The notes: generated by a model not told the origin, from the sequence alone. Counted from the first letter of the stretch, positions 2,598 through 29,745 are shown. The stretch: 32,584 nucleotides of DNA from Nitrospinota bacterium (GCA_016212295.1 JACRGO010000102.1:1-32584); one strand, 5' to 3'. Numbers and translations are program-made.

Positions 2598-2614
2598 ACT
2601 TAAGGAGAACAACG

Positions 2615-12461: not shown

Positions 12462-14939
12462 ATGGAATTCTTTAAAAAACACAACATCACAATCCTGTGC
12501 CTCACTCTCATTATCTGTCTCTCTTCCCTGGCCACGTATAACTATTTCCACCAAAAGGAAATCCTCCTCCAGCAGTTGAACGTGGACACGGACAATATCG
12601 TCAAGTCGGTCTCCTCCAGCATTTCCAAGTTCACGGCCATCAAGGACCTTATGAACATCCAGGACCTGATCAAGAACATCTCCCTGAAGCTGGACATCTT
12701 CGAGTTCCGCTACATGGACAAGGACGGGACCATCCTGAACTCCATGTTCAAGGAGGAGATCGGGCAGAAATTCGAGCGCCCCAATTTCGACATCACGGAC
12801 AAAAAGAGCCTGGGAAAGTTTTATGAGGACGAGCGGGACATGACCAAGGTCCTCGCGGTCTCCTATCCGGTCAACCGGGGCGAGGAAATTGTGGGCATCA
12901 TCGACCTGGCCGTGGATATATCGGAGTTTAACAGCGCCTCCAGGGAGGTCAGGGAGACGGCCCTCAGGCGGATGGAAACGGACGTCACCAACCTCGTGAA
13001 CTCCGTGGCCAGCTCGGTCCTTACCAGCCTTTCCATCTTCGAGACCGTGGACTTCCTCGATTTCCTGGCCAACTTCGTGAAATCCACGGAGAACATAGTG
13101 GAGGTGGCCTTGCTGGATAAAGACGGCAAGGTCCTGGTCAGCAGCAATCCGGACAGGGCTGGCAAGGATTTAGGCAAAAAGCTCGCGGAGCCGCAGCGGG
13201 GGTTCCTTACGGAAAAGGGAAGGGACGCGTACAGGATTATCGACCTCGTGAATCCATCGAAATCCGACGGCATCCATCTGATGCTCCTTATGGACGCCAC
13301 CTCCTATGTATCCAATGTGCGCCAGCTCCTCGTCACGGCCATCGCCACGTCCCTCTTCACCATCCTTTTCGCCCTGACCATCGCGTATTCCATTTACAGG
13401 ATCAACCTGGAACGGGCCAAGAAGGAAAACGCCAGACTGGAGTCCAAGGTCAGGGAGCGGACCAAGGAAATCGGCGACATCCTGGACAACGTGGGCCAGG
13501 GCATCCTGACCGTTTCAGAGGACTTGATCGTGAACCCGGAATACTCCCTGATCTCCGAGAAAATTTTCGAGAAAAAACCGGCCGGAGAGCCGCTGGCCGG
13601 GCTTTTGTACCAAACCGGTGAAGGCGTGAAATCCTTCATTGACTGGGCCAAACTTTTTTTTGATCCGAATAAGCTGATCAGCGTGGATGGGATTATTGAA
13701 ATCGCTGAAAAGGAAATGAAAATAAAGGCAGGAAATAAAATCAAGACCCTTCATGTGGAGTATCGCCCGATTTATGGGGAGGACGCCAAAACCGTTAAAA
13801 AAATCATGGCGGTGCTTACGGACATTACCTCTCAAAAGGAGATGGAAGCCAAAAGCGCCAGGGAGAGGGAGGAGCACGAGCAGGTGGTCAAGATACTGAG
13901 AGACCAGGATTCCTTCTTCTCTTTCCTGGAGGAGTCCAGGAAAATAATCAGCGAGGCGGAGGCCATCCTCGGAGAGCTTTTAGAGAAACAGGAAAACCAT
14001 GACCCTCTGGTTAACCAGCTTTTTCGCGGCATGCACACCATCAAGGGAACAGCGGCGGTTTTTTCCATCAGGCATGTTTCCTCCCTGGCCCACGAGATTG
14101 AAAACCATTTCAATGAAATACGCCAAAGGAAAAGAGAGGTTTCCCCTGAACTGGTCAAGGAGTTGAGGGAGCAATTGCAAAGACTTTTTGACGGGCTGGA
14201 AGGAGTGGTTGCGACCCTGGCACAACTTGTGGGCGGGGCCTTCGGCGCGGGGCATAAGGTGGTCAAAATCAAGGAGGAAAAAATTCATGCCTTTCAGCAA
14301 ATGCTGGAAACAATGGATGGCCTGCGGGAAGCGCGTCCGCTGATTCTCAGGAGTTTCAAGGAACTGATGAAAGTCCCCATAGGGAGGGCCTTTCGTAAAT
14401 TCCCGGACATGGCGAAAACCACCGCCGAAAAACTTGGCAAGGAAGTTCAGCTTGAAATTAGAGGCGGAGACCTTGAGATAGAAAAGGAACTCGAAGGCGT
14501 CCTCGCCGCCCCGATGATGCACATAATAAGAAACTCAGTTGACCACGGTATCGAGGACCCCTCCGACAGGGCCATGCTGGAAAAGCCCGAGAAAGGTTCG
14601 GTTATTGTGGAGTGCGGCAGGGAAAACGGCCATATAGTGGTAAGGGTCAAGGATGACGGGAAGGGGATCGATCCTGATGAGATAAAAAAAGTGGCGGTAA
14701 GAAAGGGCTTTATTTCCGAGGCGGAAGTCGCCTCTCTTTCGGATCATGAGGCCATTTGCCTGATCTTTCACCCGGGCTTCAGCTCCAAGGAGGAGGCCAC
14801 TGACCTGTCCGGCAGGGGGGTTGGGATGGACGTTGTGAAAACAGAGGTCGAAAAAATCGGAGGTTCCGTGGAGCTCGCAAGCGAGGTCCTGAAAGGCTCC
14901 ACCATTACGTTGAGGCTTCCCGAGCATATAAGAACCTAA
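12462..14939 (+). CDS. membrane CheA-like histidine kinase (sensor-PAS-Hpt-HATPase)
   Basis: 825 residues. Residues 1-312 repeat the transmembrane/Cache-like sensor of the kinase at 8249 with only about eight differences. Then come a coiled coil, a PAS-like domain (about 330-460), an Hpt domain with phospho-acceptor H525 in RGMHTIKGTAAVF, a linker, and a CheA-type ATPase (MMHIIRNSVDHGIED, VKDDGKGI, GRGVGMDVV). It stops after the ATPase, so the CheW-like regulatory domain that docks CheA in arrays is missing. It is thus a membrane kinase with CheA catalysis, phosphorylating a receiver in trans. Candidates are the nearby receivers, including the HEAT-REC proteins. No Shine-Dalgarno before ATG 12462. 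Confidence 0.92.
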   Translation: MEFFKKHNITILCLTLIICLSSLATYNYFHQKEILLQQLNVDTDNIVKSVSSSISKFTAIKDLMNIQDLIKNISLKLDIFEFRYMDKDGTILNSMFKEEIGQKFERPNFDITDKKSLGKFYEDERDMTKVLAVSYPVNRGEEIVGIIDLAVDISEFNSASREVRETALRRMETDVTNLVNSVASSVLTSLSIFETVDFLDFLANFVKSTENIVEVALLDKDGKVLVSSNPDRAGKDLGKKLAEPQRGFLTEKGRDAYRIIDLVNPSKSDGIHLMLLMDATSYVSNVRQLLVTAIATSLFTILFALTIAYSIYRINLERAKKENARLESKVRERTKEIGDILDNVGQGILTVSEDLIVNPEYSLISEKIFEKKPAGEPLAGLLYQTGEGVKSFIDWAKLFFDPNKLISVDGIIEIAEKEMKIKAGNKIKTLHVEYRPIYGEDAKTVKKIMAVLTDITSQKEMEAKSAREREEHEQVVKILRDQDSFFSFLEESRKIISEAEAILGELLEKQENHDPLVNQLFRGMHTIKGTAAVFSIRHVSSLAHEIENHFNEIRQRKREVSPELVKELREQLQRLFDGLEGVVATLAQLVGGAFGAGHKVVKIKEEKIHAFQQMLETMDGLREARPLILRSFKELMKVPIGRAFRKFPDMAKTTAEKLGKEVQLEIRGGDLEIEKELEGVLAAPMMHIIRNSVDHGIEDPSDRAMLEKPEKGSVIVECGRENGHIVVRVKDDGKGIDPDEIKKVAVRKGFISEAEVASLSDHEAICLIFHPGFSSKEEATDLSGRGVGMDVVKTEVEKIGGSVELASEVLKGSTITLRLPEHIRT

Positions 14940-14972: not shown

Positions 14973-15944
14973 TCACGTGGAAAACTGGAGAATGATCTCG
15001 GAAAAGCGGTTTGAAATTTCCTGAATGTTCCTTGAAGCCTCCATGACCTTGCCGGCCTGCTCCACTTCCACATTTGAATTTTCCTTGGTCTTCTCGATGT
15101 TGCTGATGATTTCCTTGACCCCCCTTGAGGCCCTTTCCAGATTGCCGGCTATTTCATTGGTGGTTGCGTATTGCTCCTCAACGGCCCCGGCTATGCTGGT
15201 GGAATAGTCGTTGATCTTGTTCATCACCTCACGTATCTCCTGGGTCCCCTTCCTGGTCTCGGCGCTGTCCTGGAAAATGGTCTCAACGTTTTGAGTGATA
15301 TCGTCAGTGGCCGCGGTGGTCTCGCGCGAGAGGTCCTTGACCTCCTTGGCCACCACCGCGAAGCCCTTTCCGGCGTCTCCGGCCCTCGCGGCCTCGATTG
15401 TGGCGTTCAGGGCCAGTAGGTTGGTCTGCTTTGCTATGGCCGAGATGGAGCGTATCACCTTATCGATTTTCTTGGATGACTCCTCAAAGCGGGCGACGAT
15501 CCTGCTGGTCTTTTCAGTGGTGGCCACCGCGGATGAAACTATATTGGCGGCTTGAGAGGCGTTCTTTGAAATGTCATTGATGCTAAGGGTAACCTGTTTG
15601 GATGAGTCCGCTATTGACTCAATATTCGCCCCCACCTGGGAAGAGAATTCGGCCATTTCCTTTATGTATCCGTTGGTGGACTCCACGGATTTCGCCACTG
15701 CCTCGGCGTCGGTCTCAAGGCCCACGGCCTGCCCGGCAAGGTCCGTGAATACCCCCATCATGGCCTCGATTTTGGACACAAGCATATCCAGGAAGGCATT
15801 ATACGCCTCCTTGATTTTTTCAAACTCGGGGTCCACGGTCGACGCCGTGATTCTTTTCGTCAAGTCCCCTGCCGAAGCCGCCTGAAGCGACAAGAGAAAT
15901 TCCTCTATAAAGGCATTTTCAGGCCCTGGGTTAGTATCGCTCAT
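14973..15944 (-). CDS. soluble methyl-accepting chemotaxis protein
   Basis: 323 residues and no membrane segment, so cytoplasmic. Residues 10-65 look like a HAMP-type helical segment ([17 protein letters not shown]), followed by the long coiled-coil signalling domain. The hairpin tip is canonical: [20 protein letters not shown] then [18 protein letters not shown], which binds CheA and CheW. There is no sensor domain, so it probably takes its input from a partner, the likely ones being the diiron-type protein and the 80-aa protein encoded just upstream. Ribosome binding site gaaagga precedes ATG 15944. It is the last gene of the operon, convergent with the CheA-like kinase. Confidence 0.93.
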
Positions 15945-15982
15945 AAACGCGTCCTTTCACTATTATTTTGGCGAAAAATCCA

Positions 15983-16225
15983 TTACAGGTTGACGCCGTA
16001 CTTCTTTGCCGCCATCTTCGCGGCGATCTTCACCACCGGCAGGCCGGACAGGTTCTTGAAGAATTCGTGCAGGGCCGCCATTGGATCGGCCTTCGTGCCT
16101 TGCACGGAAAACGACCCGTCAACGTGTATCCCGCTCTGGTCGCAGATGGATTTCAATTTATCATGGTCTTTCGTGAGTTTTGTTCCGTCCGTTAAGACCG
16201 CTTGAATAATATCCCTAGGACTCAT
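15983..16225 (-). CDS. unknown 80-aa protein in the chemosensory operon
   Basis: Not recognised. It is soluble, with no signal or membrane segment and no cysteine pair (one cysteine, C28). The N-terminal half (MSPRDIIQAVLTDGTKLTKD) and C-terminal half (HEFFKNLSGLPVVKIAAKMA) look helical and the end is basic. Ribosome binding site gggag lies nine bases before ATG. It is encoded 26 bases after the diiron-type protein and 38 bases before the chemoreceptor, so a role as adaptor between these two is the simplest guess. Confidence 0.7.
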   Translation of the reverse strand: MSPRDIIQAVLTDGTKLTKDHDKLKSICDQSGIHVDGSFSVQGTKADPMAALHEFFKNLSGLPVVKIAAKMAAKKYGVNL

Positions 16226-16251
16226 GTGATTAGTCTCCCGTTTAATTTTTT

Positions 16252-17028
16252 TTAAAGAGTGATTCCGTTCTTCGCAGCCAGCCTGTCTATCTCTCCACCC
16301 ACCTCAAGCTGATGGGCCGCTTGCAGGTATGCAGGAATAAATTCCTTTTTTATAAGGCAGCCATGCTGGGGAGCGATCAGATTGATCCCGTGGCTCCTGT
16401 CCAATTGCTCGATTCTTTTGAGGGCGTACTCCAAGGCCCTCTTGGACCCAAGATACTGGCCAAGGAAGGTGGTCAGTTGCATCGGATAAAAATCCCCGGC
16501 GTATACGTCATTTTCGCCGGTAAACCCGCCGAAGGCGTCAGAGGAAAAAAGGGTCTTTGTCTGTATGTCATACGTGACCATGCTCCCGATGAAATGGCAA
16601 TAGGGAGTCATGGCGAAGACCAGGGTCCTGCCGTTTCCGAAAGACAAAGTTTCTCCCTCATCCACCGGGGTGACGTCATGGACGCAGCCGTAATGCTGCA
16701 CCAGGATTTGCGCTTCCAGTGGGGCGTGGATTTCCACGTCCTTATGAATCAGTTTTTCAAATAGGGGCATGGCCGCGCACAGATCCGGGTCCTGGTGCTG
16801 GACGATCATGTGCTTTATTTTTTTCGGGTCTATAACCGATTTGACCTTGCGCAGAATTACCTCAAAAAAGGCGGGCTTGGCTGAACCGGGGTCCAGCAGC
16901 ACTGCCTCATCTCCATCCACTATTAGATAGGGGATATTTGAAAAACTGAAATTGGAATCCTGCACGCCCAGATGAAAAATGCCGGGCGCGACTTCTATTG
17001 CGTCCTTGTCATTATAACTTTCTGACAT
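16252..17028 (-). CDS. ODP-like diiron metallo-beta-lactamase-fold protein (stand-alone sensor)
   Basis: 258 residues, the size of the flavodiiron core domain without the flavodoxin part. Metal ligands are visible in flavodiiron order: H78-x-D80-x-D82 (QHQDPDLC), H145 (TPYCHFIGSM), D164 (FSSDAFGG) and H222 (APQHG). The histidine that normally follows the DxD is leucine (L83). This is the pattern of ODP, the diiron protein of Treponema denticola that binds iron and O2 and regulates CheA. I start at ATG 17028, preceded by aaggaga; the longer frame would translate a palindromic repeat. Located between CheB and two small chemotaxis genes, it is most likely an oxygen or iron sensor. Confidence 0.88.
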   Translation of the reverse strand: MSESYNDKDAIEVAPGIFHLGVQDSNFSFSNIPYLIVDGDEAVLLDPGSAKPAFFEVILRKVKSVIDPKKIKHMIVQHQDPDLCAAMPLFEKLIHKDVEIHAPLEAQILVQHYGCVHDVTPVDEGETLSFGNGRTLVFAMTPYCHFIGSMVTYDIQTKTLFSSDAFGGFTGENDVYAGDFYPMQLTTFLGQYLGSKRALEYALKRIEQLDRSHGINLIAPQHGCLIKKEFIPAYLQAAHQLEVGGEIDRLAAKNGITL

Positions 17029-17065
17029 GGTCTTTCTCCTTTCCAAAAAAAAGTTAATAAAAAAT

Positions 17066-17154
17066 AGGCACAAAGGGGCAAAGGCACAGAGGCACAAAGT
17101 TAGTCCCTTCACCTTTTGCCTTTATGCCTATGTCCCTTTGCCCCTCTGTGCCTC
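17066..17154. repeat. inverted repeat of aggcacaaaggggcaaag type in the che operon
   Basis: The left arm (17066-17099) is built from aggcacaaaggggcaaagg-like units; the right arm (17116-17154) holds the complement. The result is a long imperfect hairpin in the 131-base gap between cheB and the diiron-type gene, where it might lower downstream expression or end transcripts in part. Confidence 0.7.
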
Positions 17155-17159
17155 TCCTT

Positions 17160-18206
17160 TTACTGCATATAATATCTTGTCTTGTCCGCTATTTCGTCCA
17201 AGGGGACCGTCTCGTCCGCCAAATTAGCCTCGTTTACAAACCGGGGCATTCCATAGACCACGCATGAATCCTTTTCCTGCGTTATGATGGAGGCGCCTTT
17301 TTTCTTCAATTCCATGCACCCGCTCAATCCGTCCTGCCCTATGCCGGTCATGATGATTCCAAGGGTCCGGTTCCCGAAGTTTTCCGCGAGACTTTTAAAA
17401 AGCACGTCAACCGAAGGGCGGCAACTGTTAACGGGCGGTCCCTGGTTCAGTTTAATGACCCTTTTCCCGCCATCCTGCTCAACGGCCATGTGAAAGTCCC
17501 CTGGCGCGATATACACATGGCCTTGCCGCAATACGTCTCCCTCTTCCGCCTCCTTGACGCTGATAGCGGAAAGGGAGTTCAGCCGTTCAGCCAATTGATG
17601 CGTGAATATCGGGGGCATGTGCTGCACCAGCAGAAGGGGACAACGCATGTCCGAGTCCAGTTTAGGTATGAGCCGCGCCAGGGCTTCGGGTCCGCCAGTG
17701 GATATTCCCAGTCCAACAACGTCCTTCCGGACTCCCCGTGACGCCGGGGTTTGGGGCCGGACAAACTTTTCAGGACGCGGGGCCGCCTTGGGTAAATCAT
17801 CGCCTACCAGGCCGTGTATTATGGGGATCAGGGTCTTTTCGATTTCCCTTTGCCCCTCGCTCAAGGAACCCCCGGAGGGCTTGGCCACAAAATCCAGGGC
17901 GCCCAGGGACAACGCCTTAAGGGTCTTGTCCGCCCCGTGAACGGTGTGGGAGCTGAACATAATGACCTTGGGATTAACGGACGGGCGAAGCTTCTTCAAC
18001 TCCTCCAGGGTCCGCAGGCCGTCCATGACCGGCATTTCCAGGTCCAGGATAACAACGTCAGGCGAGAGCTCCCTGATCATTTTAAGGGCCTCCTCGCCGT
18101 TCCTGGCCGACCCCGCGACCGTGAACCCTTCTTCCTTTTCCAATTGCCTGGTCAAGGTCAACCGGAAGACGGAGGCGTCATCAACTATCAGAATTTTGGC
18201 CGCCAT
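17160..18206 (-). CDS. cheB: chemoreceptor methylesterase/glutamine deamidase CheB
   Basis: 348 residues: receiver domain with D55 (VVILDLEMPVMDG) and lysine in DFVAKPSGG, then the methylesterase domain. The catalytic triad is S169 (GISTGG), H196 (VQHMPP) and D292 (TGIGQDG). CheB removes methyl groups from chemoreceptors when phosphorylated by CheA, resetting sensitivity. Its start codon shares one base with the stop of the MBL-PAS-receptor gene (TAATG), implying coupled translation and that this receptor is its substrate. The matching methyltransferase CheR is not in the window. Confidence 0.96.
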   Translation of the reverse strand: MAAKILIVDDASVFRLTLTRQLEKEEGFTVAGSARNGEEALKMIRELSPDVVILDLEMPVMDGLRTLEELKKLRPSVNPKVIMFSSHTVHGADKTLKALSLGALDFVAKPSGGSLSEGQREIEKTLIPIIHGLVGDDLPKAAPRPEKFVRPQTPASRGVRKDVVGLGISTGGPEALARLIPKLDSDMRCPLLLVQHMPPIFTHQLAERLNSLSAISVKEAEEGDVLRQGHVYIAPGDFHMAVEQDGGKRVIKLNQGPPVNSCRPSVDVLFKSLAENFGNRTLGIIMTGIGQDGLSGCMELKKKGASIITQEKDSCVVYGMPRFVNEANLADETVPLDEIADKTRYYMQ

Positions 18207-20218
18207 TAGTGCTTTTCAAATTCCTGGACAAGGTGTTGCAGGCTGTTGGCCAGGTCCGTGAGGTCTGTTGCGGACTGTGACGTCTTGCCCGCGCCCTTTG
18301 ATGTTTCAGTCGCGGCCTCGGCCACGCCTGAAATGTTATTCGAGATCTCATCGATCCCCTTGGCCGCCTGGCCCATGTTGTTGGCGATCTCGCTGCTTGT
18401 GACTGACTGCTCCTCCACCGCGCTGGCGATGGTTGAGGAGATGTCGTTCACCTGGCCGATGATGGATGAGATGCTCTCAATGGCGGCAATGGCGTTTTCA
18501 GTGTCCTTTTGGATTTTTTCGATCTTTTCCGTGATGTCTTCCGTGGACTTGGCCGTTTCCTTGGCAAGGTCCTTGACTTCGTTCGCCACAACGGCGAACC
18601 CCTTGCCCGCGTCACCGGCGCGGGCTGCTTCTATCGTTGCGTTCAAGGCAAGGAGATTGGTCTGCTGGGTGATGGAGCTGATGACCTTTATGACCTTGCC
18701 TATTTCGGTTGAGCTTTTCCCCAAGGCCGCGATAATGCCGCTGGCGTTCCGGGCCAGGCTGACCGCCTCCTTGACCACCACGTTGGCCTGTGCGGTGTTT
18801 TTGGAAATTTCAGTGATGCTGGCTGACATCCCCTCCATTGAGGTCACCACGGAGTTGATGTTGCCGCTCACTGTCACGCTGGATTGAGACACCGTGTCCG
18901 CCTGTGTGGAAGTCTCCTCCGCGCTGCTGGACATGGTAAGGCTCACGTTTTTAAGGGCCTCGGCGGCCTCGCCGAGCCGGACCGTGGTCTTGTATAATTC
19001 ATCCTTTACCTGTTGGTCGCGCTCCTCCCTTTTTATCTTGTCGGTGATGATTTCCCAGGAGACCATGGGACCGATGAAGTTCCCCTCGTCGTCGTAAACC
19101 GCGCTTGCGTTGAGGGACAGCTTTTCGTCGCCCACTGAGATCACGGCCTTTCTGGGGAAGGACTCCCTGTGGTTCTTTAAGAGTCCCCTCTGGAACCTAG
19201 GGTCCTTATGGAAGATATCAAAGCTGGCCCCCACTATGTTATCCACCTTGCAGGGGAGCAGGTGTTCTATGGACTTCATTATCTTCCTGCTCTGTGGATT
19301 CATGTACACAATGGTGCCGTCCTGGTCCGCCGCCATGAGGTTAAGATTGCAGGTCTCCACCATCTGGCGCATCCGGATGGCCGCTTGTTGTTTTCGTATT
19401 GTTTCCGCGAAGCTTTCGTCGGCGTACATGCCGACTTGCAGCTTTTCCAGCTTCTTGAAAAGTTCATCTATGTTCCCCTTGATTATGGAACCGTGCTGCG
19501 GAAGGATCCTTTCGATGGGCCCAAGTTTCTTGATTTGGTGCAGCCCGTTCGTGAGGATTTCAGAAGACGGCATGTAGCCGCCGTGAAAGGAGACTATCTT
19601 CTCGAAATAGGAATTGTCCGCGTATAGCTCCCAATCGGTTGTGATCCCCCCGAAGAGGTCGGAGGAAAAAACGGACTTGGTCCTCTCGTCATAAGTAACT
19701 ATGGCGCCGGGAGAGTGCAGGTATGGCGTGTGCGCGAATTTAAGGCTGCGCCCGCCCAGGCGCAGCTTCATGCCTTTTTTGTCCACCTCGTAAAAATTAA
19801 AACCGCAGCCGAAATGTTTTATTAAAACGGACATCCTGCTGTGGCAGACTATCACGCAATCCGGGTCAACGTGGGGGCGGAAGGCGTTGACCGCGGAACA
19901 TACGTCCGGGTCCTGGTGGTGCGCGATGATGTATTTGATGGAGGAGAGTTCCACTATGGAGCTTATCTTTTCCAGAATGCTCTCGGCATAGAGGAGTCCG
20001 CCCGGGTCAACCACTGCGCTGTCCCCGTCCTCCACGATCAGGTAAGGATTACAATGGAAGGGATCATCATTTTCCTCCCCGACCCAGTAAATCCCGTTTT
20101 CAAGGTCCTTCACAGTGTGGGCGTTCCCAACCGGGGCGCCGTCGTACACCTTGACGGCGAATTCAGGGGTTTCGGATTTTTTGGGCGATTTCGCGGCGGT
20201 CTTTTTCATGGCCTTCAT
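18206..20218 (-). CDS. MBL-fold diiron/PAS/chemoreceptor fusion
   Basis: 670 residues, no membrane segment. A lysine-rich N-terminus (1-20) is followed by an ODP/flavodiiron-like metallo-beta-lactamase domain (about 25-265) with ligands H101-x-D103-x-D105, H168, D187 and H242; the usual histidine after the DxD is V106. A helix leads to a PAS domain (about 285-395, [20 protein letters not shown] ... [13 protein letters not shown]). The rest is the receptor signalling domain with the tip [18 protein letters not shown] and [12 protein letters not shown]. The fold pairs a diiron site with a receptor in a single chain. It should sense O2, NO or ferrous iron and gate CheA. Alternative start codon at residue 4. 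Confidence 0.93.
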
Positions 20219-20255
20219 CCTTTCAAAAAAGTTTTAATTTAATAGCGGCAGTCAT

Positions 20256-20320
20256 TGGTCAATAGTCATTTGCCATTGGCAAGAAGGAAGACCACCCTAA
20301 TGACCAGTGACTATTGACCA
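20256..20320. repeat. 13-bp inverted repeat of the caatgac family in the che operon
   Basis: tggtcaatagtca (20256-20268) pairs perfectly with tgactattgacca (20308-20320). It lies in the 153-base gap between cheW and the MBL-PAS-receptor gene. Same family as 8106-8168. Confidence 0.75.
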
Positions 20321-20371
20321 CTGACTCTTTAAAGCCCGCCCAGGGCGTTAAACTCATGGAAAACTTTGCGC

Positions 20372-20938
20372 TCACCCCACCAGGGCGTCAACGTTCAAAA
20401 CAATCAAAAGCTGCGTCTTAAGCTTGCAGACCCCTTTCACGTAGGGCGCAAGCCTGGAGTCTATATTCATGGGCGGCGGCTCATAGTAATCAGGGTCGAC
20501 TTCCAGCACGTCCCCTACCCTGTCCACCACGAAACTGAACAAGCCGTCCTTGGAGTTCACTATTAAATTAACGTCCTGAGACCCGTTGCGGGAGTCCTCG
20601 AACTTCATACGCTTTCGCAGGTCTATGGCCGGGACAATCTGGCCCCTCAGGTTCATCAGACCCCTGAAGTACTCGGCCATGAGAGGCACCGGGGTCATTT
20701 TTTGAGAGAGCAGAATCTCCTGGACCTGGTTTACGAAAATGCCGAAGAAATGGCCGGACAGATAAAAGGTGGCCAGCATCAGGTTGTTTTCGGTCCGCCT
20801 GTCCGCGACCCTGTCCCTTCGGTCGAGCCTCCTGCGGTCGCCCCCTGGATAATCAGCGGCGGGGTCTTTCCTGCGCTCGGTTTTTTCGCGCCTTGAGCGG
20901 ACCGGCTCAGTCCTTTTAGCAAGCTCTTCCGGACTCAT
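20372..20938 (-). CDS. cheW: chemotaxis adaptor CheW
   Basis: 188 residues. A charged, arginine-rich N-terminal tail (1-52, with RRKDPAADYPGGDRRRLDRR) precedes a normal CheW domain: LATFYLSGHFFGIFVNQVQE, the core PLMAEYFRGLMNLRGQIVPAI, and the C-terminal KLKTQLLIVLNVDALV. CheW links receptors to CheA in the array. The tail is unusual; it could tether the array to nucleic acid or acidic surfaces, which is speculation. The ATG overlaps the CheA stop codon (ATGA), with gggagga inside the cheA end. Confidence 0.95.
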   Translation of the reverse strand: MSPEELAKRTEPVRSRREKTERRKDPAADYPGGDRRRLDRRDRVADRRTENNLMLATFYLSGHFFGIFVNQVQEILLSQKMTPVPLMAEYFRGLMNLRGQIVPAIDLRKRMKFEDSRNGSQDVNLIVNSKDGLFSFVVDRVGDVLEVDPDYYEPPPMNIDSRLAPYVKGVCKLKTQLLIVLNVDALVG

Positions 20939-23900
20939 ACTCTCCTCCCTTCGGCCAGCAATTTCTTGGCGGCGCGGACCAATTCCTCGCGGTCCATCTT
21001 GATTTGATAATCATCCACCCCGGCCCTCAATGCCTTTTCCCGGTCCTTTTCCCCGGCCAGGGAGGTGACCGCCATGATGGGCATGCTCTTATAGACCGGT
21101 TTTTTTCTAACTTCCTCCACGAAGGCAAAGCCGTCCATCCTCGGCATTTCCAGGTCAGTGACGATCATATCCACATCCTCTTTCTCCAGGACAGCCAGAC
21201 CTTCCAGGCCGTCCATGGCCGTAAGCACCACAAACCCTTCGGATTCCAGGTAGTTCTTTTCCAGATTGAGGAAGAACGGCGAATCCTCCACCAGAAGTAT
21301 CTTGTAATCCTCCAGATTTTTGGGAAGTTTCTCTTCCTCCTTTTTCTCGAAAAAGGAAGGGTCGGCCTTTTCGATTATTTTATAAATATCAATCAGCAAT
21401 ATGGCCTTTTCATTCACAACCATGGCGCCTAAAACGCCGCCTTCGTGGAAGACCGAGGTGTCAACCTGCTCGTATGTCTCTATGGCGTCGTCAAGAAAAT
21501 TCGCCAGCAGGCCGACTTTTTTATTGTTAAAATTGAACACTATAACGGAATAGCTATCCGTGGGCGCCGGCGGCGTGATGTCCAGATATTTTTCCAGCCT
21601 GATCAAGGGGATGAGGGAGTTAAAGTAAGATATCATCTCCTTCCCTCCCATGGTTTTGATTTGGTCCCTTGAAATTTCCTCAATGCGGGAGATGAGCAGC
21701 AACGGTATCCCGAAAGACTCCTTTTCATTGACGCGGAACAGCAAAAGGGTTTGGGATTCCACCTCCGCCTCGTCCTCTTCCGCTCTTGCCTCTTCGGAAA
21801 TACGCTCGATGTCGATTTGCTCATTCTTTAAAATTCCGGCCACATCCAGGATCATGGCTACCTGCCCATCGCCAAGGATGGTCGCTCCAGCGTATACCTG
21901 CTGTTTTTTGAATTCGGAAACGAGCGGCTTGACAACGATTTCCTCGGAATCAAGGATGTCGTCCAGGATGAGACCGAAGACCTGGCTGCCTGACTGCAAA
22001 ACCGCGATGTACAGATAGTCGTCTTCCACATTTGGAGACCTTTCCTTGGGGGGCAGTTGAAGCACGTTTCTCAAGCGGATAAGGGGGAGCAGGTTTTCGC
22101 GCAGCCTGTACACCTCGGTCCCGTGCATTTTTTCAATGGACCGGTCCATCGCTTCCCCTTCCAGGAAGACCAGCTCCAGTAAATTAACCTGGGGAATGGC
22201 GTACCGCTCGCCCCGGCAAAGGATGATCAGCGTGGGAATGATGGCGAGGGTAAGGGGTATGCGGAGCTTCAAGGTGGTCCCCTTTCCGGCTTCCGAAATG
22301 ACCTCTATCAGGCCGCCGACCTTTTCGATGTTGGTCTTGACCACGTCCATTCCCACGCCCCGGCCCGATATGTTGGTGACTTTTTCCGCTGTGGAGAACC
22401 CGGCCCGGAAGATCAGCATTTGCAGTTCCTTATCGCTCATCTTGTCGGCAACGGCCGGGGAGATGATCCCCTTTTCAATGGCCTTTGCCCGCACCTTAAT
22501 TGGATTGATGCCTCCGCCGTCGTCCTTGATTTCAATGACCACCTGGCCGCTCTCATGGTAGGCGCTGATGAAAAGCTGCCCGTCGGCGGGTTTATTGTTT
22601 TTCTGCCTTTCCCCGGGGGCCTCGATGCCGTGGTCAATGGAGTTCCTGACTATGTGCATCAAGGGGTCCTTGATGGCCTCCAGGAGCGTCTTGTCAACCT
22701 CGGTCCCCTGGCCTTCAACCGTCAGCCTGACCAGTTTTCCGTTGGACTTGGCCAGGTCGCGGACCACCCTTGGGAATTTATTGAACACGTTCCCGATGGG
22801 CTGCATCCGGGTCTTCATGATGTCCATCTGCAGTTCAGTTGTAACCAGGTTCAGCTTCTGGGCCGCCTGGTTCAGTATCTGGAGATCATTGTTTTGAAGG
22901 CTTTGCAGATTTTGAAGAAGCTGGTTCCTGGCCAATACAAGCTCTCCAACCAAATTCATAAGGGAATCAAGCAATTCAATATTGACGCGGACAGTGGTGT
23001 CCGCCTGGGCGACGGCCGACGCCCCGGAAGGAGCGGGAGAGTCCGCTTCCGGGGCTGGATGCGCTTCGTGGACTTCCGCTGGAGCGGCCTGGACCGGGGC
23101 GGCTGGTTCCTTTTGCGGAGGAGGCGCTGTTACCTTTTGGACTGATGGAGAAGCGGTTTTCTTTACCGGTGGAGGGGCGGCCTCCGTCTTGGGGGCCGAC
23201 GGTACCGGTACCTCCGCCTTGACCTCTGGTTTAGAGGCTTGGCCCGAAACCGCGCCGGCCTTGGCGGTGCGATTCAATTCCTCCAGGAGGGCGGATATGT
23301 CCTTGTCGCCCTCGCTTCTGCCGGCCCCTATGTTGCCCATAATGGCTTTTATGCTATCCACGGAATTCAGAAGCAGATTGATAAGCCCGGGTGTTACGCT
23401 CATTTCTCCTTCGCGGCACTTGGCCAGGATATCTTCAGTAATATGGGTTATGGCCTCCAGTTTGGAAAATCCTAAAAACCCGGCGGAGGCTTTTGTAGTA
23501 TGAAATCTCCTGAAGATATTTTTAATAAGGGTGGAGTCGGCTGGATTTTTTTCCAACTCCAGGAATTCCCGGTCCAAACGTTCAAGGTCTTCATTGGTTT
23601 CACTCAGGAACTCCTTGAAAAATCCTTCATCCATGCTTTCCTTTGGCGGAGACAAAGCCTCCCGGGCTTTTGCCTCGGAGGGTGGCGGCTCTTCCCGGGT
23701 TTGGCCCCCCCCCCCGGTTTCCGCCGGGCGGATGATCTCCCCCGGCGCCGGTTTCCCGGGCGCCGCGGCCCCTTGTGAAGTGCGATTGAGTTCTTCCAGC
23801 AGGCCTGAAATATCCCTACCCCCCTCAGTCCTGCTTGATCCGAGGCTGCTCATTATCTCTTTAATGCTGTCGACGGATTTCAAAAGGAGGTTGATAAGGT

Positions 23901-24159
23901 CCGGCGTCACTTCCATCTTGCCGTCCCTGCATTTCACCAAAATATTCTCGGTGATATGGGCCAGTCCCTCCAGTTTGGAAAGCCCTAAAAACCCGGAAGT
24001 CCCTTTGACGGTGTGAATGGTTCGGAAAATGCTGTTTATCAAAGCAGGGTCCTTGGGTCTTTCCTCCAACCCTAGGAACTCCTGGTCCAATCTTTCCATG
24101 CTCTCATTGGTTTCCGTCAGAAAATCGTTCAGGATTTCCTCATCCATCATATCGCTCAC
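20935..24159 (-). CDS. cheA: hybrid CheA kinase: Hpt-Hpt-dimer-HATPase-CheW-CheW-REC
   Basis: 1074 residues. Two Hpt domains come first: H49 in IHTVKGTSGFLG and H220 in FHTTKASAGFLG (glycine after the lysine replaced by alanine). A long proline/alanine-rich linker (about 300-390) follows, then the dimerisation helices, the CheA ATPase (LMHIVRNSIDHGIE, IKDDGGGI, GRGVGMDVVKTNIEKVGG), a CheW-like domain, a second CheW-like domain (about 790-930) and a C-terminal receiver with D1002 (MIVTDLEMPRMDG). Such hybrids can pass phosphate to an internal sink. Start is GTG 24159 with gggag upstream. The linker between the two Hpt domains is coded by an 11-base C run. Confidence 0.96.
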   Translation of the reverse strand: MSDMMDEEILNDFLTETNESMERLDQEFLGLEERPKDPALINSIFRTIHTVKGTSGFLGLSKLEGLAHITENILVKCRDGKMEVTPDLINLLLKSVDSIKEIMSSLGSSRTEGGRDISGLLEELNRTSQGAAAPGKPAPGEIIRPAETGGGGQTREEPPPSEAKAREALSPPKESMDEGFFKEFLSETNEDLERLDREFLELEKNPADSTLIKNIFRRFHTTKASAGFLGFSKLEAITHITEDILAKCREGEMSVTPGLINLLLNSVDSIKAIMGNIGAGRSEGDKDISALLEELNRTAKAGAVSGQASKPEVKAEVPVPSAPKTEAAPPPVKKTASPSVQKVTAPPPQKEPAAPVQAAPAEVHEAHPAPEADSPAPSGASAVAQADTTVRVNIELLDSLMNLVGELVLARNQLLQNLQSLQNNDLQILNQAAQKLNLVTTELQMDIMKTRMQPIGNVFNKFPRVVRDLAKSNGKLVRLTVEGQGTEVDKTLLEAIKDPLMHIVRNSIDHGIEAPGERQKNNKPADGQLFISAYHESGQVVIEIKDDGGGINPIKVRAKAIEKGIISPAVADKMSDKELQMLIFRAGFSTAEKVTNISGRGVGMDVVKTNIEKVGGLIEVISEAGKGTTLKLRIPLTLAIIPTLIILCRGERYAIPQVNLLELVFLEGEAMDRSIEKMHGTEVYRLRENLLPLIRLRNVLQLPPKERSPNVEDDYLYIAVLQSGSQVFGLILDDILDSEEIVVKPLVSEFKKQQVYAGATILGDGQVAMILDVAGILKNEQIDIERISEEARAEEDEAEVESQTLLLFRVNEKESFGIPLLLISRIEEISRDQIKTMGGKEMISYFNSLIPLIRLEKYLDITPPAPTDSYSVIVFNFNNKKVGLLANFLDDAIETYEQVDTSVFHEGGVLGAMVVNEKAILLIDIYKIIEKADPSFFEKKEEEKLPKNLEDYKILLVEDSPFFLNLEKNYLESEGFVVLTAMDGLEGLAVLEKEDVDMIVTDLEMPRMDGFAFVEEVRKKPVYKSMPIMAVTSLAGEKDREKALRAGVDDYQIKMDREELVRAAKKLLAEGRRV
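23705..23715 (-). repeat. homopolymer C11 tract inside cheA
   Basis: Eleven consecutive C on the plus strand (G on the coding strand), encoding part of the TGGGGQ stretch in the linker between the two Hpt domains. Length changes here would shift the frame and leave only the first Hpt domain. Confidence 0.9.
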
Positions 24160-24187
24160 AACATACTCCCCAATAAAGCCGTTGAAT

Positions 24188-25795
24188 TTAAAACGATTTT
24201 GTCAAGCTGATGTATTTTCCGGCCTTTTTCTGAAACAAGTCATGGGTAAAGGGCTTTTGGATAAAATCATTTGCCCCCGCCTTTTCAGCCAGTTGTATCT
24301 GTGACTGTTCCGATTCGGTGGTAGCCATGATAACCGGTATTTTTTTAAAGGCTGGATTTTCACGAAACTTCAAAATGAATTCAATTCCATCCATAACAGG
24401 CATATTCATATCCGTGACGATGAGGTCAAATTCTTCCCCTTTTTCCAGAAGGTCCAATGCCTCCCGGCCGTTGATTGCGGTCGTCACATCCAGTCCCAGG
24501 CCGGATCCGGCGCTCCGATAAAAATAAAGCATGGCTTTTGAATCGTCCACGGCCAGGATTTTTTTACCGGTTTTTCCGGCGGAAACGTAGGAAAGCCTTT
24601 CCGCGTCCAATTTTGCCCTGTCTCCGCCAATGCCTTCAAGCGCCGCTCCGAATTCCGATATCAACTCCGGGTCATTGGAACCCGAAATGATTTCCAGCAA
24701 TTTTTCCGCGATCTCCTCCTTTTTATATAAGGCTTTAAATAAATCCATGGCCTTGGAGGCCGCAATGGCGCGCATTATTCTTTGGCTCCGGGCATTGCCC
24801 GGGCGGACAAACTCTTCCAATTTATTAATTACAGCGGAATTGATTTGCCGGTTAAGGGAAAAAACAACGGCCATGAGCAGCAAGTCATCTTCCTCCAGAA
24901 GTCCGTCCATCAGGCAAACAGTCCCTTTCAAAAAAGGTATTCCGCCAAGGGCCTCATATATGGCGTATTTGACGTTTGGATGAATGGCTTCTCCCTTCCT
25001 GTCAAAGATAGAGAGTAATATCTCCCCGCCATTTTTATCACCTATGGCCCCGAGCAAATTAGAGGCCAGAATTTGACAATCAACGTCTTCCTTGTCAAAA
25101 ATGGAAACGAGACAGGGAATGGCTTCACGGCCTTTCTTGACGAGCTCCTCATGGATGATACGCCTGGCGGTCGGGTTTCCATGGTGTATTTTTGAGGCAA
25201 GGAACGATAAGGCAGGCCCGTTTCCTATCGATCCCACAGCCTCTATGGCCTTCCATGTGACGAAATTACACTTTTCATATCCTCCCCCGGATTCTCCTTC
25301 CTCTATAACACCGCGCAACAGATCTAACGCGGTAAAGTCCTTATAAACGCCCAGCATTTCAATGGATAAAGAGGAAATCAGGGGTTCAGGATGGTTGGAA
25401 TTCATTTGGAAGACTTTTAAAAACTCCGGCGCCCTTATCTTGGAAAGAGAAGAAAGAGTTTCAAGAAGCATTTCCCCGTTTTTTTCCTTGGATGCAAGGT
25501 CAAGGAGGAGCGGTCCAGCGGACCGGAAACGATTTTCTCCGGCCAGATTAACACAAAGTTTTTTTACCCGGACCTTTCCAGATTGAATCCCTTCAAGGGT
25601 CATCTGTTCATTTTTCGATAAAAGCCCCCGCAAGGTATGTATGACCATGCTGTCAACGGCCTTATCGTTCAGTGGGACCTCGTGCAATTCAAAAAGTTCC
25701 GGTATGGCCTCGAATTTTTTCTCTTCCTCTATCTCCTTAAGAATTTTAACCTGCTCCAAAAAACCCATCTCTCTAAAACCCATAAGCGCGTTCAT
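24188..25795 (-). CDS. HEAT-repeat protein with C-terminal receiver domain (downstream copy)
   Basis: 535 residues. Residues 1-405 are a solenoid of helical HEAT-like repeats (for example ALDLLRGVIEEGES, AIPCLVSIFDKEDVDCQILA, GEILLSIFDRKGEA). Residues 410-535 are a complete receiver with D462 (LIVTDMNMPVMDG), acidic pair in LAVDDS and the lysine in DFIQKPFTHD. The domain order suggests a phosphorylation-controlled protein-protein scaffold. Located 28 bases before cheA in the same direction. The start is uncertain: ATG 25795 lacks a clear ribosome site and in-frame ATGs follow within ten codons. Confidence 0.9.
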   Translation of the reverse strand: MNALMGFREMGFLEQVKILKEIEEEKKFEAIPELFELHEVPLNDKAVDSMVIHTLRGLLSKNEQMTLEGIQSGKVRVKKLCVNLAGENRFRSAGPLLLDLASKEKNGEMLLETLSSLSKIRAPEFLKVFQMNSNHPEPLISSLSIEMLGVYKDFTALDLLRGVIEEGESGGGYEKCNFVTWKAIEAVGSIGNGPALSFLASKIHHGNPTARRIIHEELVKKGREAIPCLVSIFDKEDVDCQILASNLLGAIGDKNGGEILLSIFDRKGEAIHPNVKYAIYEALGGIPFLKGTVCLMDGLLEEDDLLLMAVVFSLNRQINSAVINKLEEFVRPGNARSQRIMRAIAASKAMDLFKALYKKEEIAEKLLEIISGSNDPELISEFGAALEGIGGDRAKLDAERLSYVSAGKTGKKILAVDDSKAMLYFYRSAGSGLGLDVTTAINGREALDLLEKGEEFDLIVTDMNMPVMDGIEFILKFRENPAFKKIPVIMATTESEQSQIQLAEKAGANDFIQKPFTHDLFQKKAGKYISLTKSF

Positions 25796-25920
25796 GAAAT
25801 TTTTTCTGTCCCTATTTAAATTTGTTTACGCTTGTCTACAAAATGCGCGAGATAAATTTTCAAAATAAGCGTGTAAGAACCTATCGTAGCACAAGATTTT
25901 AAACCTAAAACTCCAAAACT

Positions 25921-27564
25921 TCAAATTTCAATTCCCCTGGGTTCGCGCCCGTGCAGATAATCGTCCACTATTCCCAGCAGTTTTTCATTCTTGAATGGTT
26001 TGGTCAGGAAATAATTCGCCCCAACTGAAATGGCCAGCTTTTTGTCCAGGTTTTCCGATTGGGTGGTAATCATCACTATTGGAATGGATTTGTATTCTTC
26101 ATCTCTTCGTATTTTCCTGATCAATTCAATCCCGTTCATTTCCGGCATGTTCATATCGGTGAGTATTATATCAAAATTCTCTTTCCCCAGGGCGGCCAGG
26201 GCTTCATGGCCGTTATAAGCGGAGGAGATCCGGTGCCTCGCCGGGGCAAGGGCGCTTCCTATGATCTTGTGCATGATTTTTGAGTCATCCACCACCAGGA
26301 CCTTGAACGCCTTGGCCTCTTTCTCCATGACCCCATAGGACTCCAATTCGCGGACCAGTCCTTCCTTGTGGGAGTTCTTCAGAAAGATAACCAGCTCCGC
26401 TATTTCGCGGCCTGACTTGATCTCATAAAAAAATCTATAACAAAGCTCCCGGAATATCTCGTTATCGGAGAGGAATAAAAAAACCTTTTTCGCGTTAGCC
26501 ACCACCGTGGCCATTGCCGCGATTTCGATATTTTCCTGCCTCGTCTCGAAAAAATTGCGTATGCCGCGCACCGTGAACGCGTCCTCGATATTTTCCTCAA
26601 TGGCGGTCATGGCGGCCACGCGCACCTGGGGCTCTTCATCCAGGACCCCCGTGGGCAGGTGCATGATGCAGGACTTTGAGCCGACCCTTCCCAATGCCTC
26701 AAAGGCGGCGTACCGGACATTCGGATGTTCGTCCTTGGCGGCATGCAAGAGAGGTTTCACCGATTCCTTGTTTTTAATGAACCCAAGGGTATTGCAAACC
26801 ACTATCCGGACGTCTGGATTTTGGTCCCCCAAAAGCTCATGCAAAAAGGGAATGGCCAGGCATCCCGTCTCCACCAGCTTATCAATGGCCCTGTTCCGGA
26901 CGTCAACGTCCCTGGACTTCAGAAAACCGGCCACGGCCTGGATTCCCTTGGCGTACCCCATGTGGGCCAGAAGGTCCAGGGCCGCGATGTCCATCTCCTT
27001 GTTCTTGCCCAGCACGTCCAATATTATCTCCAGCGACTCCTCGCCCGCGCATCCGCCAATGGCCTTAAGCGCGGCTTTTGCCAGGGCCGGCTGGGAAAGG
27101 TCCAGATACATTTTTAACTTCGGCACGGAATTTTCGTCGCCTATCCTGCCAAGGGCCGCGATGGCTGTTTCAACGTCTTCGGGGTTTACGAGGTCGGAAA
27201 GAAGGTCGTGAAGGTAAGGGACCGCTTGCTCCAGTTCAAGGACGCCGGCTATTTCCATCAACATGGAATTGTGGTGGAATTTTCCGGATGCCAGGAGATT
27301 GATGATGGCCTCCGGCTCCCGCCTGGCTATTTCAGCAAGCGTATCAATGCGCTTCTTTAAAAAGCCCTCGCTCAACGGGCTTCGTCCGATAAGGGCGAAA
27401 AACTCCGCCGCAATGGGGCAGATGGGGACTTGGCGGATTGGTTCCAGGATTTTTAATAGATCTTCCTGGGACAGGGCCTTGGTGTGCCTGAAAACAGCGG
27501 AAAGTTTCACCGGATCATTATTTCGGCAGGCTTGCGTTATTTCATCAAGGACGTGGCTTTCCAA
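25921..27564 (-). CDS. HEAT-repeat protein with C-terminal receiver domain (first gene of operon)
   Basis: 547 residues. HEAT repeats fill residues 20-410 and are unusually regular, for example VETAIAALGRIGDENSVPKL, VRNRAIDKLVETGCLAIPFL and VRYAAFEALGRVGSKSC. The receiver (about 419-547) has D470 (IILTDMNMPEMNG) and lysine in YFLTKPFKNE. It shares its layout with the next gene but differs in sequence, so the pair is old. The start is TTG 27564 with aaaggga nearby. Being first in the operon it is a candidate for the output of the kinase in place of CheY. It is separated from the second copy by 125 bases that hold only AT-rich sequence. Confidence 0.9.
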   Translation of the reverse strand: MESHVLDEITQACRNNDPVKLSAVFRHTKALSQEDLLKILEPIRQVPICPIAAEFFALIGRSPLSEGFLKKRIDTLAEIARREPEAIINLLASGKFHHNSMLMEIAGVLELEQAVPYLHDLLSDLVNPEDVETAIAALGRIGDENSVPKLKMYLDLSQPALAKAALKAIGGCAGEESLEIILDVLGKNKEMDIAALDLLAHMGYAKGIQAVAGFLKSRDVDVRNRAIDKLVETGCLAIPFLHELLGDQNPDVRIVVCNTLGFIKNKESVKPLLHAAKDEHPNVRYAAFEALGRVGSKSCIMHLPTGVLDEEPQVRVAAMTAIEENIEDAFTVRGIRNFFETRQENIEIAAMATVVANAKKVFLFLSDNEIFRELCYRFFYEIKSGREIAELVIFLKNSHKEGLVRELESYGVMEKEAKAFKVLVVDDSKIMHKIIGSALAPARHRISSAYNGHEALAALGKENFDIILTDMNMPEMNGIELIRKIRRDEEYKSIPIVMITTQSENLDKKLAISVGANYFLTKPFKNEKLLGIVDDYLHGREPRGIEI

Positions 27565-27776: not shown

Positions 27777-27825
27777 ATTAAAAAAAAATTGAGACCCCCG
27801 GGGCGGGGTGGGCCCCAGAGGTCTC
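27777..27825 (-). terminator. rho-independent terminator-like hairpin, minus strand
   Basis: On the minus strand gagacc (27825-27820) pairs with ggtctc (27796-27791) around a GC-rich inner stem (ggggc/gcccc), followed by a run of nine T. No minus-strand gene lies upstream of it in this window, so it may end a small RNA, or insulate the operon from read-through. Confidence 0.5.
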
Positions 27826-27888
27826 TATGTGGGGCGAGACGCCATGCCCCATTTCCTGGTCAAAAAAACCAATCCATCGATTAGAAAT

Positions 27889-28005
27889 CATAGCGCGACA
27901 TAGCCGCAATCAAAATAAATTTCGATGTATTCAAACGTTCGATGATATTATTACGTTCAGAAATTTGCGCGGACAACGCAAATTTCTGAACGTAATAATA
28001 TAACC
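27889..28005. repeat. interleaved-palindrome repeat, copy 1 (A and B, A' lost)
   Basis: Begins with the A arm (tagcgcgacatagccgcaat at 27891), then continues directly to the B hairpin: 27946-27969 pairs perfectly over 24 bp with 27977-28000, loop cggacaa. The A' arm seen in copies 2 and 3 is missing, as if deleted between B and B'. Confidence 0.8.
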
Positions 28006-28215
28006 CCCCCTTTAAAAGTTAATAATTTTTCAAATCAAAAATCAAGACAAACAGGATAAAACCGATCCTGTATTTTTTAGATACTATTGTAAACAAAAAT
28101 TTTTTTTTGTCAAGGATTCCGTTTTACGGCCGCGCCCTGGAGGCCGTTTTGCCCTTCTTGCTCCATCTCTGTTCATGCGCTATAATTCTTGCGTTATTAA
28201 AATATAACACGGCAT

Positions 28216-28410
28216 GGCCGCAACCAAAATAAAATTTCGACTTATTAAAACGTCTGATAAGATTATTACGTTCAGAAATTTACGCTTTCCGCTTGAAATA
28301 AAATCGACGTTTAATACTTCAAGAGAAATTTATTTTGGTTGCGGCCGCGTAGCGCTCCAACAAGCATTTGAAAAATTTGCGCGGAAAACGCAAATTGCTG
28401 AACGTATAAT
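28216..28410. repeat. interleaved-palindrome repeat, copy 2
   Basis: Arms in order: A 28216-28237 (ggccgcaaccaaaataaaat...), B 28261-28292, A' 28326-28346, B' 28381-28410. A pairs with A' with one unpaired base; B pairs with B' with several mismatches. B' ends directly at the ATG of the HPr-domain gene. Confidence 0.8.
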
Positions 28411-29745
28411 ATGGAATACAAAATAAAAAGCAGCGTTGCCATAAAGGAAATTTCCGAGACCGAATTCGCCCCGATGGTCACGGAGGCGGCGAAGGACTTC
28501 TTCAGGATGTCCAACTATTTCCGGCTTACCGGGCTGGATGGATTGCCCAAAAGGAGTTTTTCAGAGTACGCGCAGATATGCAACGTCCTTGAATCCTTTC
28601 TAGATGACCACGGCGCCAGGGACAACACCCATTGGGCCTTTTTCGCGGAATTGGTGGCCTCCATACGAAACCTCGGCATTGCCGCCTACATCATGCGGCA
28701 TGTGCTTGACCGGCAGATGGATTACCATTGCGGCGAGACGCAAATGGCCCTATATGACTTTGTCAGGGAAGGATTCCAGACCCTGGACTTCCTTAAATCC
28801 TCCATCGTGAATCTAGGCAACTCCGCGGAGGAGGAAGCCAAAAGACTTTCAGTGCAGGTGGACAATCATGTCTTTGAGTGCAGGCAGGAGTCCAAGGAAA
28901 TTTATTATGTCCTGCCAAAAAACATGAATGAAAGCATCGTTGAAAACAAGGAAGAAAGAATCGTGGAGTTGGTGCATAAGGTGCGGAAAGTGGCTAAAAT
29001 CATGGACGAGGAGAGAATAAAAAAAGAATCAGACCCGGAAAAACTCTATAGCATGATCCCTCTCAAGATTGATGAAAAGAAGGCGCGGAAACTGAAGAAC
29101 ACCATACACGGGGTCCAATCCGATTACGACACTTATGTCAAGAATACCCAGGTGGAAAAGAAAAACGCGGACCTGAAACTTTTAAGGGGCTTTATTTCAA
29201 TTCCGCTTCATCTGCTGGAAATGGTCAGGTGGCTTTCCCATTTTTACGAAAGGCACGAGGACGCAATCCGCCAAAGCGAGGAGACAGCCAAGATCGCCAG
29301 GATAGTGGACAAGATGACGGTTTTGGACAGGATCGTCAATTTCGGATATTTTTTTTCCGACCAATACATGCGCCAGGCCAGGAAGGTTGCCGAGAAGATT
29401 CTAAATCTTTACGTCAAGCCGGTCCGATACGAACTCCCGGTCCCCTCGAAGGGTTTCCATGCCCGGCCCTCAACGTACATATCCCTGATAGTCAACGAGC
29501 ATGGCACGGACGTTTTTCTGATAGTGGGCGACCAAAAATATAACGCCAAGTCAGTAATGAATCTGATGATGGCCGCGGGCATCATATATGACATGGGACT
29601 GAAGACAGTGATATTCGAGGGGGACCAAAGGGTCCTGGACGACATCAGGATATTAGCTGAAAATAATTATTGCGAGGACCAGGAAATTCCCCGCGAACTG
29701 AACTACTTGCGGATACTGAGGAACGTCGGCACGCCCATTGTTTGA
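28411..29745 (+). CDS. helical protein with C-terminal HPr phosphocarrier domain
   Basis: 444 residues. Residues 1-340 are helical and charged and I do not recognise them. Residues 340-444 form an HPr-like domain: VPSKGFHARPSTYISLI places H350 in the HPr phospho-histidine motif, and NAKSVMNLMMAAG puts S381 exactly 31 residues further on, the H15-S46 distance of HPr. Both regulatory sites are thus kept. HPr passes phosphate from enzyme I to sugar or regulatory enzymes; no PTS genes are seen here. ATG 28411 directly follows a repeat arm and no Shine-Dalgarno site is visible, so the start is uncertain. Not part of the chemosensory operon (opposite strand). Confidence 0.85.
   Translation: MEYKIKSSVAIKEISETEFAPMVTEAAKDFFRMSNYFRLTGLDGLPKRSFSEYAQICNVLESFLDDHGARDNTHWAFFAELVASIRNLGIAAYIMRHVLDRQMDYHCGETQMALYDFVREGFQTLDFLKSSIVNLGNSAEEEAKRLSVQVDNHVFECRQESKEIYYVLPKNMNESIVENKEERIVELVHKVRKVAKIMDEERIKKESDPEKLYSMIPLKIDEKKARKLKNTIHGVQSDYDTYVKNTQVEKKNADLKLLRGFISIPLHLLEMVRWLSHFYERHEDAIRQSEETAKIARIVDKMTVLDRIVNFGYFFSDQYMRQARKVAEKILNLYVKPVRYELPVPSKGFHARPSTYISLIVNEHGTDVFLIVGDQKYNAKSVMNLMMAAGIIYDMGLKTVIFEGDQRVLDDIRILAENNYCEDQEIPRELNYLRILRNVGTPIV

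Follow-up and report, generated by a model that had tools for sequence, protein, structure and literature searches.

A nine-gene chemosensory operon of a Nitrospinota bacterium with two ODP domains, an Aer2-type PAS domain and HEAT-receiver proteins

In Treponema denticola, ODP, a diiron protein of the metallo-beta-lactamase (MBL) fold, is genetically coupled to a receptor that has neither a transmembrane segment nor a sensor domain, and it alters the ordering of the kinase CheA; maps of the array show no obvious position for ODP (PMC7666581). The present analysis concerns an operon of nine minus-strand genes on a contig (JACRGO010000102.1, here C49) of a Nitrospinota bacterium (GCA_016212295.1), which encodes, in this order, two HEAT-repeat proteins with receiver (REC) domains (HEAT-REC1 and HEAT-REC2), a hybrid CheA, CheW, a receptor in which an ODP domain is fused to PAS and MCP domains, CheB, a stand-alone ODP, a protein of 80 residues (p80) and a soluble MCP. 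The window is the whole contig of 32,584 nt, part of a metagenome-assembled genome of 3.74 Mb (237 contigs, 90.5% complete). Gene calls and Pfam matches bear out the nine same-strand genes and their order as given in the initial annotation, with p80 as the one protein that matches no family. The explanation favoured here, which is moderately likely, is that the operon encodes a cytoplasmic chemosensory array reading intracellular O2/redox state and Fe(II), with the HEAT-REC proteins as its candidate output.

The locus resembles T. denticola TDE2498/TDE2496 and the ODP of Thermotoga maritima (PDB 6qrq, 6qnm) in its MBL domain with the same diiron ligands, in the paired soluble receptor without transmembrane segment or sensor domain and in the presumed action on CheA (Muok 2019, as cited in PMC7666581). 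To these it adds an ODP domain fused to a putative heme-type PAS domain and MCP, its own hybrid CheA, CheW, CheB, two HEAT-REC proteins and p80. Fusions of ODP to signalling domains have been reported (Muok 2019, as presented in PMC7319448), and fusions to HisKA-HATPase or GGDEF domains were seen here in other bacteria; in these too ODP is the N-terminal sensory module. ODP-PAS-MCP as an architecture was confined to the genus of the host and to L077, a distant deltaproteobacterial metagenome-assembled genome placed under Myxococcota, among the 80 loci kept from a search of genome contigs and 77 Nitrospinota genomes (within the latter, in this genus only). The Aer2 receptors of Pseudomonas and Vibrio share the PAS type with a heme-ligand histidine and are soluble O2 receptors with an MCP hairpin, but their PAS domains are flanked by HAMP domains, not by ODP, and they have no diiron module.

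HEAT-repeat proteins have been linked to che genes before, namely the Che7-associated protein of Myxococcus (PMC9040617) and OE2401F of Halobacterium, a HEAT_PBS protein that binds CheD and OE2402F, is required for motor switching and acts between the Che system and motility (PMC2666748). OE2401F consists of HEAT repeats only, whereas the proteins studied here fuse HEAT repeats to a receiver. The earlier statement that no description of this gene set was known is weakened by the accounts of ODP combined with sensor-less cytoplasmic receptors, in operons with them, and of ODP fused to signalling domains (Muok 2019, to the extent that it is related in PMC7319448, PMC7666581 and PMC6978683). Three elements appear to be undescribed in the open-licence papers found: a receptor of the ODP-heme-PAS-MCP type, the p80 family and, as the first genes of a cheA operon, HEAT proteins that bear a receiver.

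Diiron-type and predicted heme-type sensor domains in soluble receptors

Both MBL domains belong to the ODP family PF19583, the fusion receptor with 191.7 bits and the small ODP with 161.7 bits at a curated cut-off of 27.2. The six flavodiiron-type ligands that had been noted in each are confirmed by alignment (H101, D103, D105, H168, D187 and H242 in the fusion receptor; H78, D80, D82, H145, D164 and H222 in the small ODP), and 88 of the 91 ODP-family domains aligned share this H-D-D-H-D-H set. By sequence, 6qrq and 6qnm, both oxygen-binding diiron proteins, are the nearest structures solved, followed by flavodiiron proteins, and the small ODP matches T. denticola ODP (6qrq) with an E value of 6e-21. 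Family membership makes O2/Fe(II) the best guess for the ligand of the two domains, and a well supported one; NO would be a possible ligand.

The homology to flavodiiron NO/O2 reductases could also mean that the MBL domains are redox enzymes, i.e. protective scavengers of O2 or NO, rather than sensors. This is very improbable: neither domain is accompanied by a flavodoxin domain, one forming a protein of 258 residues and the other being joined to PAS-MCP without an intervening domain, ODP sensors are the closest structures, and the ODP-HisKA-HATPase and ODP-GGDEF fusions found elsewhere imply sensing. Plasmid matches to ODP were considered as relatives of the system and rejected; the best ones, from Fusobacteria (one examined), adjoin GGDEF genes, the others examined are distant MBL or flavodiiron proteins, and none occurs with receptors.

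In agreement with the initial annotation, both receptors lack hydrophobic segments (maximum KD19 1.1), and with the start of the small ODP taken at ATG 17028, no transmembrane-like segment is present in the receptors, ODP, CheB or the HEAT-REC proteins. This ATG, with its AAAGGAG ribosome site, is the most likely start, not GTG 17112.

The PAS domain of the fusion receptor, whose type had not been recognized before, matches the Aer2 structures 3vol and 4hi4 with an E value of 9e-12 and 6ceq with 8e-14. Its W388 aligns with the late tryptophan of Aer2, which we take to be W283, a residue that presumably stabilizes bound O2. The histidine of the FHK motif, H337, is conserved in Aer2 and 6ceq and, as inferred from spacing and alignment, would be the counterpart of the Aer2 histidine taken as the heme ligand H234, through which Aer2 binds heme (PMC13401364). 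The domain is thus of the Aer2 type and is predicted to bind heme; since the heme-ligand histidine is kept, ODP-PAS-MCP probably carries two different O2 sensors, one diiron and one heme. The overall architecture of Aer2 is not found, ODP preceding the PAS domain in place of the HAMP flanks, and the NCBIfam model of Vibrio Aer2 scores 149 at a cut-off of 1200. If the prediction is true, such a receptor, which combines a diiron site with a probable heme site for O2 on one hairpin, would lend itself naturally to testing how one kinase integrates two oxygen sensors.

The last receptor has only a weak N-terminal match to HAMP (PF00672, 19.7 bits, below the cut-off). The arrangement known from T. 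denticola, an ODP gene next to an MCP gene without transmembrane segment or sensor domain, is present, with the p80 gene between the two. The two receptor hairpins align over about 265 residues without internal gaps, and because their lengths match, both receptors could share one array; each has a putative methylation site.

Separable modules and the p80 family

The operon is made up of modules that can be told apart, a feature that had been missed, as had the conservation of p80. In a tree of 91 ODP domains, the domain of the fusion receptor groups with those of L077 and of the only other genome of the genus, G001 (support 100/91), and the stand-alone ODP falls, on a long stem, with five ODPs of Nitrospinota (support 100/99). 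Both clades sit within a larger set of 21 rows with long branches, in which the internal order is unsettled. Two domains in separate, supported clades rule out a recent tandem duplication of ODP within the operon and imply that it joins at least two histories.

The first module, CheA-CheW-ODP/PAS/MCP-CheB, is complete in L077, where the fusion receptor is 51% identical. In G001 the contig begins inside the region, and CheW (76% identical), the fusion receptor and CheB are present. The second module, the stand-alone ODP with p80, usually together with a receptor, recurs in G001, G058, G060 and G013. The order is ODP-p80-MCP on one contig of G001 (C435), MCP-ODP-p80 in G058, G060 and G013, and ODP-p80-Rrf2-p80 on a second contig of G001 (C71). 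In the latter (L171 4488-6450, minus strand), the gene after ODP-p80 encodes an Rrf2-family (iron-dependent) regulator, and CheR and pilus-type genes are nearby. In G013 (L175 6080-6529, minus strand), a hemerythrin-domain protein, a second type of diiron O2 protein, is encoded after MCP-ODP-p80.

Homologs of p80 were found at 11 places in 9 of the 77 Nitrospinota genomes, and at ten of these places p80 adjoins an ODP or MCP gene directly or at a distance of one gene (the second copy in C71); at the eleventh (G039), the p80 gene stops about 180 nt short of a receptor gene. In three genomes (G010, G014, G048), p80 lies beside an MCP gene and no ODP was detected there. The alignment contains eight invariant residues, and an AlphaFold model (pLDDT 90) has the order alpha-alpha-beta-beta-alpha-alpha. 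The protein has no match in Pfam, NCBIfam or among plasmids, and its model has no significant match in the PDB; weak matches to H-NOX (TM 0.5, E 6-7) were judged to be noise. p80 is therefore a conserved, unnamed family linked to ODP and receptors. The T. denticola work leaves open how signals pass from a diffusible ODP to a receptor that has no sensor (PMC7666581), and p80 is a small, testable candidate for this link.

HEAT-receiver proteins and the possible output of the pathway

In the AlphaFold2 model of HEAT-REC2 (pLDDT 85.6), a helical solenoid precedes a receiver of (beta-alpha)5 fold, which matches CheY structures with TMt values of 0.84-0.95. The catalytic Asp and Lys of the receiver are kept in both HEAT-REC proteins, as they are in the C-terminal REC domain of CheA, a protein for which Pfam gives two Hpt domains, a dimerisation domain, HATPase and two CheW domains upstream of the REC; the Hpt, CheW and REC domains had not been listed before. 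The position beside cheA and the intact CheY-type receivers suggest that the HEAT-REC proteins may serve as the output in place of CheY.

Statements on local gene content refer to contig C49, beyond whose ends the sequence is not visible. On this contig there is no CheR, no free CheY and no motility gene, and a complete stand-alone chemotaxis cluster (CheA, CheW, MCP, CheR, CheB and CheY together) is not present. The initial claim that CheY, CheR and motility genes are lacking thus holds for the contig, but not for the genome, which is equipped for motility and for several chemosensory systems: it encodes FlhA (E 1.5e-276), has flagellar and pilus genes on other contigs, T2SSE/PilB-PilT-type ATPases, 25 CheW-domain matches and six CheR genes, and carries a CheV-like gene on a flagellar contig (C97). 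FlhA and the pilus-type ATPases rule out a host without motility. Because CheR is absent from the contig, any CheR used by the operon must be encoded elsewhere in the genome.

A second che cluster on contig C102 (L049 6563-14485, plus strand) encodes a ParA-like ATPase, CheW with a long N-terminus, a HEAT protein, CheR, two CheYs, CheX and CheA. The genome has about nine HEAT-repeat proteins, of which three lie in che clusters, two in the operon studied here and one in C102; the latter has 683 residues and is located between CheW and CheR, near the two CheYs, CheX and CheA. Of the CheA paralogs in the clusters compared, that of C102 is the closest (40%), and the best match of HEAT-REC1 to a non-HEAT receiver in the host genome is a C102 CheY, likenesses that are suggestive of a functional link between HEAT proteins and CheY, not proof of it. 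HEAT solenoids could be a recurrent output adaptor of Che systems, as is suggested by the HEAT-REC proteins next to cheA and by the HEAT proteins found near CheY in C102 and in haloarchaea. Elsewhere in the genome, CheA genes on contig C90 (L050 7575-12621, minus strand) are split over several short frames, which reflects sequencing error or decay.

According to the favoured explanation, the ODP domain of the fusion receptor would bind a diiron site and form an O2 adduct, the PAS domain would probably bind heme and O2, and the two on one receptor might provide two ranges of affinity or combine their signals in an AND/OR manner. The stand-alone ODP would do the sensing for the second receptor, which has no sensor itself, p80 acting as a coupling or adaptor subunit, and a single array, completed by CheW and the hybrid CheA, would be common to both receptors. 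Adaptation would be achieved by CheB and a CheR from elsewhere in the genome. CheA would phosphorylate its own REC, CheB and, most likely, both HEAT-REC proteins, and the HEAT-REC solenoid would dock on a target, plausibly the motility or pilus machinery. The array sensing O2, NO or Fe(II) that had been proposed initially is retained as regards a cytoplasmic Che array fed by diiron sensors of the ODP type, for which PF19583 membership and the ligands argue; its isolation is not, as CheR, CheY and flagella are encoded elsewhere.

Several observations weigh against this explanation. HEAT-REC is absent from the L077 core operon. Two paralogs in the genus, orphans that are 51-53% identical to HEAT-REC2, lie away from che genes (C137; G001 C242); an obligate partnership of HEAT-REC and the core operon is therefore not upheld. 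HEAT-REC1 has a 67% identical copy in the same genus, which is cut off by a contig end. The CheA ortholog is missing from the G001 assembly, which leaves conservation of the junction between HEAT-REC2 and cheA unproven. As CheA and CheB carry RECs of their own, the output could also be a different one. Both the weak HAMP and the heme of the PAS domain are predictions.

The absence of HEAT-REC from the L077 operon also speaks for an alternative, in which diffusible CheYs encoded elsewhere, e.g. in C102, act on flagella and the HEAT-REC proteins tune signalling as phosphate sinks or as scaffolds of the array. FlhA and the C102 cluster, with its two CheYs and CheX beside the closest CheA paralog, are in line with it, but the REC domain of CheA itself could act as a sink, and this alternative seems rather doubtful. 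The surroundings of the operon are relevant to another one, an alternative-function (ACF-like) pathway that controls, e.g., respiration or surface attachment instead of taxis, which would be compatible with output by HEAT-REC. Genes for multiheme cytochromes and sensor kinases flank the operon, the contig has no motility gene in a genome with multiple che systems, and Myxococcus Che7, which is associated with a HEAT protein, is coupled to development (PMC9040617). However, the operon contains no effector domain (GGDEF, DNA-binding), and the flanking cytochromes are on the opposite strand and a link to them is not required; such a pathway can be entertained tentatively, on a par with diffusible CheYs. 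It is somewhat less probable still that three proposals hold jointly, i.e. a two-metal O2 receptor (diiron ODP and heme PAS on one soluble MCP), p80 as a dedicated ODP-receptor coupling subunit and HEAT-REC proteins replacing CheY as docking scaffolds switched by phosphorylation.

Layout and surroundings of the operon

The genes of the operon are listed in Table 1. The cheA and cheW genes overlap by 4 nt, the start of CheB overlaps the ODP-PAS-MCP gene by 1 nt, and most of the operon consists of such overlaps or short intergenic gaps. The spacing is wider, at about 125-153 nt, between HEAT-REC1 and HEAT-REC2, between CheW and the ODP-PAS-MCP receptor and between CheB and ODP, and because of these gaps we only infer that the nine genes form one transcript. 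Promoter predictions in the window (10 found, 10.0 expected from shuffles) did not exceed chance, and none is claimed.

Table 1. Genes of the operon, from first to last, with positions in the window
Gene product	Position	Strand	Length (aa)	Matches and remarks
HEAT-REC1	25921..27564	-	547	First gene of the operon; HEAT_2 1.7e-29, Response_reg 3.9e-29 (Pfam)
HEAT-REC2	24188..25795	-	535	HEAT solenoid and CheY-type receiver (Pfam; AlphaFold2)
CheA, hybrid	20935..24159	-	1074	Pfam
CheW coupling protein	20372..20938	-	188	Pfam CheW 2.8e-30
Soluble receptor ODP-PAS-MCP	18206..20218	-	670	PF19583 1.7e-56, MCPsignal 3.2e-32
CheB methylesterase with REC	17160..18206	-	348	Pfam; NCBIfam CheB above cut-off
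Stand-alone ODP	16252..17028	-	258	Corrected start; PF19583 2.4e-47
p80	15983..16225	-	80	Conserved small protein family; no Pfam/NCBIfam match
Soluble receptor without sensor domain	14973..15944	-	323	MCPsignal 8.9e-32; weak N-terminal HAMP

Two sensor kinases are encoded on the plus strand at 8249-10723 and 12462-14939, the second of which ends 34 nt from the last gene of the operon. They have in common an N-terminal Cache-type sensor of 340 residues with 94% protein identity (988 nt, 94.6%, no gaps), which looks like a recent domain duplication or gene conversion, and they differ in their outputs, HisKA-HATPase-REC in the first and Hpt with a CheA-like HATPase without CheW domain in the second. 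Multiheme c-type cytochromes with 4, 5 and 7 CXXCH motifs are encoded at 1788-2390, 2576-3760 and 29985-32327 (plus strand), on both flanks of the region.

Between HEAT-REC1 and the divergent gene, a strong terminator-like hairpin (14 pairs, 10 of them GC, with a T tract) is located at 27791-27825 on the minus strand. A protein of 444 residues encoded at 28411-29745 (plus strand) has an HPr-like domain at its C-terminus (PF00381, 26.7 bits, HARP motif), and its long N-terminal part matches no family. The stretch upstream of HEAT-REC1 at 27885-28410 contains two copies of a palindromic repeat of about 100 nt or more (direct copies 79-90%, inverted arms of up to 48 nt); its core, TTACGTTCAGAAATTT, is also present in other contigs of the genome, which points to a dispersed repeat or an element resembling miniature inverted-repeat transposable elements (MITE-like).
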